From Nitrososphaerota archaeon (lineage in GTDB: Archaea > Thermoproteota > Nitrososphaeria > Nitrososphaerales > Nitrosopumilaceae), in contig JACRJT010000016.1 of assembly GCA_016215465.1 (NCBI GenBank), forward strand, positions 1 through 42,073: DNA of 42,073 bases, given 5' to 3'. Under the pieces are notes generated by a model, which worked only from the letters and a program-made list of their open reading frames with translations, did not search any database and was not told the origin of the DNA. How positions within the stretch are numbered: position 1 is the first letter of the stretch; each line of letters begins with the position of its first letter. The position numbers and the translations under genes are program-made. This document shows positions 27,219 to 31,814 of the stretch, piece by piece.

Positions 27219-29516
27219 TTGACGACCATGACTAACTTTGGTACATTAGAATATGTTTTGGACAAGTTTTCCGGCACATGGAGCTGGAAGGTAACTGGGG
27301 AACGTGCGGTTGCGATGGTGTCAAGAATAATCCCGCAAGCTTGGTACGGCGATGGCGAATTTGAGGCAATAGTTCCAGACGATCCGAAAAACGTCCTGCA
27401 GATAAAATGGATAATGGACAGATACCCACTTGAAATCCTCTCAAAGACAATCTGGCAAAAAAAGCTACCTGTCACTACAAAGCCTGAGCCAAAAAAGCCA
27501 AAGAGAATAGAAAAGCTACAACTTGCAAATCCTGGAAAACAATTCAAGGGGAACCTGCTGAACTTTCAAAGAGAAGGCCTTGACTTTCTGATAAAATCAT
27601 CTGGGAACGCACTACTTGCCGACGAAATGGGCCTTGGAAAATGCCTAGTTGGCACATCCGTGATTGAAACAATTGATGGTCAAGTACAAATTCAGGATTT
27701 ATGGGAAAAGTCATCATTAACTGAACAAAATGGTGATGAATCTTGGGGACAACTTGCAACGCCGATTATAGTATCGAGTTTTGATGGTGAAAGAATATCT
27801 GGAAAAAAAGTAGATCGCATATTCAGACAGAAAATAAATGAGAATCTAATCAAAGTTACACTTTGGGATGGCTCTGATGTGGAATGTACTGGGCGTCACA
27901 GATTCCTTACACCTGATGGGTGGAAAACTGCAAGTGAATTAAACGTAAAAGACAAAGTCGCAGTTCCCGCAACTACACCACATATTGGCAAAAATGATCT
28001 TGATAATACAGAAAAAACTAACGCCAAATCCGTAATCTCAACAGCCAGCAAAACAAGTAATGGGTTGATATGTTTGGTCACAAATAATCTTGAATCAATT
28101 CATTGGTGCCCAATCAAAACAATTGAACAGAGAAAGTTTGCAGGTTATGTTTATGATTTGTCTGTACCTGAAACTCATAACTATATCGCAAACGGTATCA
28201 TCTCTCACAACACTGTTGAAACGTTGTCCTACATCGGAACCGAGCAGGGTACGTTTCCAGCACTAATTGTAGCCCCGCTTGTAACTTTGAACAACTGGCA
28301 GAGAGAAATTGAAAAGTTTTTGAAACTAAAAAGTAGAAACGGCAGACTAATTGATGACAAGCCACCAACCTCTACTATTATCCGAGTTGGAAAATCCGAA
28401 GACTTGGGAAAATACGATTTTTACATAATCAACTATGAGCTATTGTTCAAGAGATACAAGGATTTGGCCAAGCTAAACCTGAAAACAATCGTATGTGATG
28501 AAGTGCAAAACCTTCGATCAAAAACAACGCAAAAGTACCATGCGATAAAGAAACTATCTGCACTGGAATCTATAAAGTACAGAATTGGTCTTTCTGGCAC
28601 TCCAATATACAACCGTGGCTCTGAGATTTGGCCAATAGTTGACATCCTTCGTCCTGGACTACTTGGGAGCTTTAAGGAATTTTGTGAATATTTCTGCTAC
28701 ATAAATGAAAAAGGAAAGGCGATTGTACTTGAAAACAAGCGAGAGTCCCTCAGAAACATGCTGCAAAAACATGTCATGTTAAGAAGAAAGAAAACAGACG
28801 TACTGCAAGAGCTCAAAGAAAAAATCCGACACAAGGAGATAATCGATGCAGACATCAACTATTACAATAAAGAACTTGAAAAAATCTGGAAAAAGCTTGA
28901 AGACGACAGAAAGGCAGCACAGAATGCGTTTGACGCATCAACTGCATATCAAAGAGCCATCCAAAGCGAACGACAAGTAGCCGGCGTTGCAAAGCTTCCA
29001 CACGTGATTAATTTTGTTAAGAACATAATGGAAATTGAGGAGAGCGTGGTTGTTTTCTGCCATCATAAGGCAATCCATTCATTGCTCCATCAGGCCCTTG
29101 CGGAATTCAAGCCAGCATCCATCATTGGAGGGCAGTCTGACAAGGAACGACAGAACAGCATTGACACGTTCCAAAATGGTGAGACCAAACTAATGATTGC
29201 AGGACTGCGCGCAGGAAACGTTGGAATTAATCTGACTCGCGCAAAATACGTGATATTTGCCGAGCTTGACTGGAGTCCTGCAATCCACTTGCAAGCAGAA
29301 GACAGATTGCACCGAATTGGGCAAAAGAGTACAGTCTTTGCCTACTATCTGATGGGTAATGGCACACTGGACGAACATGTGGCACGCGTACTTGTAGACA
29401 AGAGTTACGAAATCGACGCAATAATGGACAACAAGGTAGAGTCCTTTGAAAACAAAGAAAAGGCAGAGCTGATTTTGGCGCAAATCCACGACAAGATACG
29501 CTCTATTACTGGCTAG
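27219..29516 (+). CDS. SNF2-family ATPase containing a mini-intein
   Basis: The 765-aa precursor has an N-terminal region (about 1-115), then SNF2 helicase motifs: Walker A DEMGLGK at 135-141, split here by a 190-aa intein, then T332 continuing GKT; motif II CDEVQ; motif III LSGTPIYNR; and the C-terminal RecA half ending AEDRLHRIGQK (motif VI). Without the intein the protein is about 575 aa, close to small Rad54/HARP-like remodellers that move along DNA. Since the intein sits between GK and T, the ATPase is dead until splicing. The start is TTG 27219 or ATG 27228; the TATA at 27185-27193 puts the transcript start near 27216. Confidence 0.93.
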   Translation: MTTMTNFGTLEYVLDKFSGTWSWKVTGERAVAMVSRIIPQAWYGDGEFEAIVPDDPKNVLQIKWIMDRYPLEILSKTIWQKKLPVTTKPEPKKPKRIEKLQLANPGKQFKGNLLNFQREGLDFLIKSSGNALLADEMGLGKCLVGTSVIETIDGQVQIQDLWEKSSLTEQNGDESWGQLATPIIVSSFDGERISGKKVDRIFRQKINENLIKVTLWDGSDVECTGRHRFLTPDGWKTASELNVKDKVAVPATTPHIGKNDLDNTEKTNAKSVISTASKTSNGLICLVTNNLESIHWCPIKTIEQRKFAGYVYDLSVPETHNYIANGIISHNTVETLSYIGTEQGTFPALIVAPLVTLNNWQREIEKFLKLKSRNGRLIDDKPPTSTIIRVGKSEDLGKYDFYIINYELLFKRYKDLAKLNLKTIVCDEVQNLRSKTTQKYHAIKKLSALESIKYRIGLSGTPIYNRGSEIWPIVDILRPGLLGSFKEFCEYFCYINEKGKAIVLENKRESLRNMLQKHVMLRRKKTDVLQELKEKIRHKEIIDADINYYNKELEKIWKKLEDDRKAAQNAFDASTAYQRAIQSERQVAGVAKLPHVINFVKNIMEIEESVVVFCHHKAIHSLLHQALAEFKPASIIGGQSDKERQNSIDTFQNGETKLMIAGLRAGNVGINLTRAKYVIFAELDWSPAIHLQAEDRLHRIGQKSTVFAYYLMGNGTLDEHVARVLVDKSYEIDAIMDNKVESFENKEKAELILAQIHDKIRSITG
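27642..28211 (+). mobile_element. mini-intein inserted in the SNF2 Walker A motif
   Basis: Residues 142-331 of the precursor interrupt DEMGLGK|T. The start C142 (CLVGTSVIETIDG) matches intein block A. TGRHRFLTPDGW matches block B with the TxxH motif. YVYDLSVPETHNYIANG matches block F and IISHN block G, ending in N331, with Thr as the first residue after it. At 190 aa it has no LAGLIDADG or HNH endonuclease, so it is a splicing-only relic or minimal form. All catalytic residues (C1, block B Thr and His, penultimate His, terminal Asn, +1 Thr) are present, so splicing should work. Confidence 0.92.
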
Positions 29517-30796: not shown

Positions 30797-31027
30797 TTAG
30801 AATTTATTGTTAGTGATCTCGTTTTTTACGAGATTTCTTAACAACTCTGCATGTTTTTTTCTATCTGTTTTTATAATGTTCCAAACCTTTTCTGCTTCTG
30901 CATCGCCTACCTTTTTTGCATCTTCTATGTACTGATCAGCACGAGACAAGAATCCTAATGTCTTTGATAGCTGGTGGATGACGTTGTAGCAGTTGTTATT
31001 TAGACACAAGTCTTTGGTATTTTGCAT
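30797..31027 (-). CDS. small helical protein, function unknown
   Basis: This 76-aa soluble protein consists of three predicted helices (NVIHQLSKTLGFLSRADQYIEDA, AEAEKVWNIIKTDRKKHAELLRNLV). The spacing of E/H pairs in the third helix hints at a ferritin-like half bundle but is not proof. Two cysteines lie near the N-terminus (CLNNNC). The ATG has TAATATAAG (31046-31054, minus) 19-27 nt upstream, with the palindrome TCACATGTGA (31073-31082) further out as a possible operator. Confidence 0.65.
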   Translation of the reverse strand: MQNTKDLCLNNNCYNVIHQLSKTLGFLSRADQYIEDAKKVGDAEAEKVWNIIKTDRKKHAELLRNLVKNEITNNKF

Positions 31028-31118
31028 TAATGTGGATACTTTTTTCTTATATTAGAACAAAATAGTCAATTATCACATGTGACATTTTCATTCATGTTGC
31101 TGGTAAAAAATTAAAAAC

Positions 31119-31271: not shown

Positions 31272-31340
31272 ATTAATTGTATGTGTAATAACATAAAGTG
31301 GATTATACCTATTATCAAAAATGAAAATCGTAAATGACTT

Positions 31341-31349
31341 TTTATTAAA
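31341..31349 (+). promoter_or_regulatory. TATA box ahead of the candidate structured RNA
   Basis: TTTATTAAA lies 19-27 nt before position 31368, where the outer stem of the predicted RNA begins. A second T/A box, TTTTTAATAC on the minus strand (about 31491-31500), lies at a similar distance from the other end, so the strand is not fixed by promoters alone. Confidence 0.45.
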
Positions 31350-31367: not shown

Positions 31368-31473
31368 GGGTAATAACACTTGAGAAAATGCATCACCTTG
31401 TACGGCATGATGCTTTCAAGAAAACGAGTAACCAAAGGATTACTACGCTCTGAATCTTGAGAAGTTGTTACCC
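31368..31473 (+). ncRNA. candidate structured RNA, three-way junction
   Basis: The spacer folds into three stems. P1 pairs GGGTAATAAC (31368-31377) with GTTGTTACCC (31464-31473): ten pairs, one of them a U-G wobble that works only on the plus strand. P2 (31379-31420) pairs CTTGA-AA-GCATCA with TGATGC-TT-TCAAG, with small bulges and a loop near 31396-31407. P3 (31425-31447) pairs CG-AGTAACC with GG-TTACT-CG around an AAA loop with single-base bulges. CTTGAGAA is repeated after P1 and before its 3' arm. It is not a tRNA or 5S rRNA, and no known riboswitch core is recognised. It could be a small RNA or the leader of the gene at 31563. Confidence 0.5.
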
Positions 31474-31562
31474 TTTCCTTGTCTGATGTGGTATTAAAAA
31501 ATCCACAAACTTGCATAATTTTGCCAAAACCCTCAAATCGGTGTGTAACGTTCACGTTTTGT

Positions 31563-31814
31563 ATGGATTTCATGCTTGAAGAAGAGATGATTGATTTGCT
31601 AACGCTGTGCCTTCAAAATCCTGATTCTACAGAGATACCTCGCGCCAAAGAGCGAATCGTGGAAATTGGAAAGGAGCTTTATGCCGACGGTGGGGTGGAT
31701 GCACTTGAAAACATGTTTTTTGCACTAGAAAACCGCATCAAAGAAGAAATCGGAAAAGACCCACTACCTCTCCGCTCGTTATGGAACGGAAATACTGATC
31801 AGTGGTATTACTAA
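31563..31814 (+). CDS. small helical protein downstream of the structured RNA
   Basis: From ATG 31563 this is 83 aa (ATG 31572 gives 80). Two helical stretches (LEEEMIDLLTLCLQNP, ERIVEIGKELYADGGVDALENMFFALENRIKEEIG) end in a Trp/Tyr-rich tail (SLWNGNTDQWYY). The longer frame from 31479 would add a stretch of unlike composition overlapping the RNA element and is rejected. No family is recognised. About 90 nt separate it from the folded region, unusual in a window where most genes have no leader. Confidence 0.65.
   Translation: MDFMLEEEMIDLLTLCLQNPDSTEIPRAKERIVEIGKELYADGGVDALENMFFALENRIKEEIGKDPLPLRSLWNGNTDQWYY

Follow-up and report, generated by a model that had tools for sequence, protein, structure and literature searches.

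A multicopy family of structured RNAs with a three-way junction and its own promoters in ammonia-oxidizing archaea

A spacer in contig JACRJT010000016.1 of a Nitrososphaerota archaeon (the window, which is the whole 42,073-nucleotide stretch analysed) contains one copy of a conserved structured RNA class with compensatory changes in all of its helices across distant homologues. The element is not a local curiosity and belongs to a widespread multicopy family with more than 80 distinct copies, with RNAs of ~85–145 bases, in at least 76 genomes of ammonia-oxidizing archaea. The window copy belongs to S1, one of two subfamilies; the other is S2, and both have a common fold consisting of a stem P1, an inner stem P1b, and the hairpins P2 and P3. 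The fold, the homology and the promoter are observed directly. The reading we favor, with a probability of roughly 0.62, is that of a stand-alone RNA that acts in trans or binds protein and is co-regulated with stress genes; its transcription, its action in trans and the identity of any partner are inferred. The features of the window locus are as follows.

30797–31027, minus strand: 76-residue gene with no Pfam match; homologues adjoin S1 copies in G244 (L048) and G248 (L052)
31311–31328, plus strand: promoter palindrome ATTATCA-AAAA-TGAAAAT at -57 to -40 (consensus ATTATCA-N4-TGATAAT)
31339–31349, plus strand: TATA box TTTTTATTAAA
31368–31473, plus strand: structured non-coding RNA, S1 subfamily copy (from its fold, homology and match to covariance model R1)
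31368–31377, plus strand: P1 5′ strand, pairs with 31464–31473; 9 of 11 P1 pairs have double-sided changes among 15 S1 copies
31380–31385, plus strand: P1b 5′ strand, pairs with 31455–31460; a conserved inner stem missing from the first drawing
31390–31413, plus strand: P2 hairpin (31390–31395 with 31408–31413), loop variable
31419–31451, plus strand: P3 arm, AGA (31419–31421) with UCU (31449–31451); inner hairpin 31425–31447, conserved AAAGGAU
31455–31460, plus strand: P1b 3′ strand (S1 covariation)
31464–31473, plus strand: P1 3′ strand (S1 covariation)
31474–31483, plus strand: T-rich tract straight after P1 (T enrichment over 82 copies)
31563–31814, plus strand: downstream gene for an 83-residue protein with no Pfam match, on the same strand as the RNA

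The first-pass annotation had suggested that the spacer might hold a new plus-strand structured RNA with a three-way junction, and this is borne out by the homologues, the covariation and the lack of an Rfam match, although details at the base of the junction differ. The 10 bp outer stem it described is an exact match in the window sequence with a single U-G pair (31374–31467) as its wobble, the AAA-loop hairpin is present at 31425–31447, and the motif noted upstream of the 5′ end is TTTATTAAA at 31341–31349. The spacer was said to be free of genes; on its minus strand there are two mechanical ORFs that overlap, neither of them a supported gene, and the next plausible start codon is an ATG at 31563, 90 nt past the RNA, where a small gene had been placed. 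In contrast, the inner hairpin originally drawn, with 31379–31385 and 31413–31420 at its base, is limited to the minimum free energy fold of the window copy itself, and the relatives conserve P1b instead. The conserved P1b fold of the window copy (-32.1 kcal/mol) is only ~1 kcal/mol above that minimum, with a pair probability of ~0.35, and its P1b encloses a P2 hairpin (31390–31395/31408–31413) that is shorter than the inner hairpin first drawn. The form of P3 as a bulged-A hairpin is ambiguous, and L043 (GAUGAUC-AAAG-GAUCAUC) and similar copies point to a straight stem that contains a C-A mismatch. The 106 nt window RNA has a minimum free energy of -33.1 kcal/mol, versus -17.1 ± 3.1 in dinucleotide shuffles (z -5.1; 0 of 200). 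The fold of the complementary strand of the element is stable too (z -4.3), so stability alone does not settle the strand, and the plus strand is favored only mildly by folding.

BLASTN identifies S1 homologues in genomes of the same family with E-values down to 6e-15, and the extracted and re-bounded copies are 103–107 nt long and have the same ends. Covariance model R1, built from four S1 copies without the window copy in training, finds 15 copies in 12 of 250 genomes and scores the window copy at 65.7 bits (E 4.4e-11 in its own genome); model R2 adds one further S1 copy, in G250. Weak R2 matches (18.8–34.7 bits) in G250, G248, G265, G267 and G268 share the S1 architecture, including the distance to a TATA box. 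The S2 relatives were gathered by BLASTN with one weak R2 match, and model R3 was built from a plain MAFFT alignment of 16 S2 copies; BLASTN and R3 together place S2 in 64 of 250 genomes and 11 of 22 genera. S1 and S2 are related, since R3 recognizes one S1 copy (31.6 bits, E 7.6e-4). Together they are present in at least 72 of 250 genomes of the window's own family, and four genomes of a second family in the order (f8) have the RNA with E-values of 1e-11 to 1e-14. The genome and copy counts are lower bounds because the large searches use strict filters. The genome of the window carries three copies, the S1 copy in the window and two of S2 (G000:C47:12620-12719 and G000:C4:4757-4850). An independent pattern scan has matches in Nitrosotalea, one genus of the window's family, and in Nitrosopumilales/Thaumarchaeota MAGs, and none in viral contigs; two matches in bacterial MAGs (L060 and L069) have no covariance model match and were discarded. 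Absence of conservation among relatives would have refuted the candidate, and homologues in many genomes exclude it. The distribution is nonetheless patchy, so this is not a universal housekeeping RNA.

The covariation evidence for a conserved structure is overwhelming. In the S1 alignment (15 copies, fitted to a model trained on four rows) 95.2% of cells are paired and 24 of 36 pairs have changes on both sides, versus 12.1 ± 1.9 when shuffled; there are 70 cells with such changes versus 19.7 shuffled, and none of 500 shuffles reaches any of the measures. As a control, sliding the partners reduces pairing to 30–45%. RNAalifold, making its own structure prediction from the same alignment, recovers nearly identical helices, in which both sides change in 25 of 37 pairs. 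One example of compensatory change among the S1 copies is in P1, where GGGUAAUAACC/GGUUGUUGCCC is replaced by GGACGUAAGCG/CGUUUGCGUCC. The plain MAFFT alignment of 16 S2 copies has double changes in 13 of 25 pairs (6.5 shuffled; 0 of 500), and a larger alignment of 67 copies fitted to R3 has 92.3% of cells paired, double changes in 23 of 25 pairs, and 292 double-change cells versus 80.9 shuffled (0 of 500). The check for compensatory changes thus finds them in all stems, and a lack of covariation, the other outcome that would have spoken against the candidate, is not seen.

Within the 70 nt upstream of each RNA, 74 of 82 distinct copies have their best TATA-like match beginning between -32 and -24 relative to P1, with a sharp mode at -27 (33 of the 82). 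A TATA promoter of its own, placed to start at the RNA 5′ end, is a criterion for a stand-alone sRNA, and the family meets it. Without RNA-seq data, transcription and the RNA ends are inferred from this promoter geometry. Over the 82 copies, 57% of the bases at the first five positions past the RNA are T, versus ~40% further on, and the T-rich tract after P1 is likely a terminator, although termination is again an inference. Eleven of 15 S1 promoters have TGAnAATC within -62 to -32 (shuffled mean 0.04), at about -46 in most; in several, the window among them, it is half of the palindrome ATTATCA-N4-TGATAAT, a putative site for a dimeric transcription factor. The window palindrome, at -57, has one mismatch to this consensus, and G249 and G036 have a perfect palindrome at the same position. 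In a scan of ten genomes for TGATCATCTTTTTATTTTA with up to three mismatches, many of the matches with zero to two mismatches are at RNA copies. S2 promoters instead have GATCA[TCG] directly before the TATA box in 37 of 67 copies (0.59 shuffled). We note that S2 promoters in g1 and g12 (e.g. L137 and L151) have an extra upstream element, (G/A)ACAAAYGTTCA, which matches at -90 to -40 in 17 of 66 S2 promoters versus 0.18 shuffled. In the window, a TGATAATT half-site is present at 31068–31075 on the minus strand before the 76-residue gene, which is possibly a member of the S1 RNA regulon.

There are departures from the common pattern of several types. Some S2 copies are ~144 nt long (L157 2518–2662, L159 2501–2643, and L222 546–689) with an extra ~48 nt hairpin inserted in P2. 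Others are in groups of two or three within a few kb (L224, G139:C1:1351582-1353542; L157, G178:C86; L225, G202:C4), in some clusters with three copies in ~2 kb, which suggests tandem duplication. The S1 copies in G238, G241 and G244 (C77) may be decayed: all three are without the operator, those in G238 and G241 are also without a TATA box, and P2 is broken or absent in those of G238 and G244 (C77).

The gene neighborhoods bear on whether the RNA is a cis-acting 5′ leader, a riboswitch or attenuator in which P1 and the U-tract would decide transcription or translation of a downstream stress or TFB gene. At 14 of 15 S1 loci the RNA and the next ORF share a strand, and a TFB start codon is apparently ~10 nt past the RNA in G200, G221 and G161; a 5′ leader would give the same arrangements. 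The position of the U-tract directly 3′ of P1 and a conserved core with variable stems, as in an aptamer, also agree with a leader. However, the next ORF after S2 copies is on the same strand in 29 cases and on the opposite strand in 27 (n = 56), so there is no leader-type bias or fixed orientation, and many S2 copies face a convergent gene. The adjacent genes share no pathway, and those downstream are unrelated among themselves; the adjacent genes include those for what we take to be universal stress protein, Hsp20, CBS-domain, P-II, cupredoxin and TFB proteins (mostly recognized from sequence without a domain search), as well as the K0 gene and convergent genes. Moreover, an operator half-site and TATA box recur between the RNA and the next gene at seven of 15 S1 loci (0.01 shuffled; 0 of 70 at S2), the window locus not among them. 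At least seven S1 downstream genes therefore have their own promoters, and each seems to form, with its RNA, a pair of separate units in one regulon instead of a joint transcript. We consider a leader possible but unlikely.

A second alternative is that the RNA works like 6S RNA, serving the transcription machinery or an RNA-binding protein as scaffold or decoy. A titrating RNA that altered promoter choice would account for positions near TFB genes, which copies adjoin in G202, G200, G161, G221, G085 and G235, although no genome-wide expectation was computed; some copies are also near Lrp/AsnC-type regulators, and the conserved junction fits a protein-binding RNA. 6S RNA, which is bacterial, forms a long rod that opens into a central bubble. 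Ours could work in a similar way, being multicopy and located near transcription-factor genes, but it has a three-way junction with no 6S-like open bubble, there is no Rfam match, and no protein partner was found, so we hold this explanation to be improbable. The multiple copies, the three-copy clusters and their unrelated flanks could also be those of a small transposable element (MITE) with P1 as its terminal inverted repeats. We rejected this, and give it very little weight, as the TATA box and upstream elements are conserved outside P1 at a fixed distance, the internal stems P1b, P2 and P3 covary, and one S2 copy is found between DnaJ/DUF72 genes and the K0 gene throughout most of the genus to which the window belongs. 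The well-folding minus strand could be cited in favor of a fold that arose by chance in an AT-rich spacer, but this explanation is refuted by all of the homology and covariation results, and we regard it as practically ruled out.

The RNA does not fit a class that we could identify, as the first-pass annotation had supposed. Rfam release 15 has no family that matches the window, S1 or S2 homologues at its gathering threshold, with tRNA and Fluoride detected as positive controls in the S2-homologue search; low-threshold matches to snR77 (16.3 bits, E 8.1), caiA and Rp_sR47 are at chance level. Among the sequences of this archaeal family there is a true riboswitch, the fluoride riboswitch (crcB motif, RF01734, 34.7 bits) at L213 3948–4026 on the plus strand in G225. 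The junction RNA resembles riboswitches in its conserved junction and variable stems and in the location of S1 upstream of same-strand genes, but differs in the orientation of S2 and in the separate promoters of several downstream genes. A tRNA-like reading was rejected: ARAGORN finds no tRNA or tmRNA in the element, and the tRNA at L208 is just upstream of the RNA without overlapping it. Like archaeal C/D and H/ACA guide RNAs it is small, stable and has its own promoters, but no C/D box match is above chance (snR77), and by reading the sequence we see neither a guide-sized internal pocket nor a terminal ACA, so that class was set aside. Its ~100 nt length, paired 5′ and 3′ ends and U-rich 3′ flank are reminiscent of Y RNAs of Ro60 (TROVE) particles; this too was rejected, as there is no Rfam Y RNA match and no TROVE protein in five genomes (G000, G024, G137, G234 and G324), with one control genome positive. 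Tan1 (Thalassoarchaea ncRNA 1), an abundant ncRNA of marine group II Euryarchaeota, is also archaeal and stand-alone, has a predicted conserved structure and lacks a known function, although at 229 nt it is longer and from another phylum, and no sequence comparison was made (PMC5069720). We found no earlier report of the RNA in the open-access literature, a search that did not extend to transcriptome supplements and subscription papers, and an unnamed sRNA peak may already be present in existing data. The RNA class is new with respect to Rfam and the open-access literature searched; its mode of action may prove ordinary.

In the stand-alone reading, each RNA gene would be transcribed from its own TATA promoter beginning with P1, fold into a closed three-way junction, and end at the T-rich tract, and the product would act in trans, as a stable RNA with a regulatory or protein-binding role. 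The combination of a conserved junction with variable hairpin loops suggests protein recognition rather than antisense pairing through the loops; neither a target nor a partner protein was found. The S1 RNAs would probably be switched by a transcription factor common to neighboring stress-type genes (universal stress protein, Hsp20, P-II and others), which would make S1 the RNA arm of a regulon for stress or general transcription. A more far-reaching proposal, which we offer as speculation with the odds against it, is that the new class is the RNA arm of a global stress or basal-transcription regulon, with S1 under a dedicated palindrome-binding factor, and with several paralogous RNAs in each genome that are tuned to different conditions and act by binding a dedicated partner protein (a TFB paralogue or RNA polymerase, for instance).

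The window also contains, at 27219–29516 on the plus strand, a SNF2-type helicase gene split by an intein splicing domain (PF14890, residues 156–331).

Few microbes on Earth are as abundant as ammonia-oxidizing archaea, and to our knowledge, within the open-access papers searched, no family of regulatory RNA of their own has been described. With its strong covariation, its dedicated promoters and its links to genes of stress and basal transcription, this multicopy class offers a testable entry to RNA-based regulation in these organisms.
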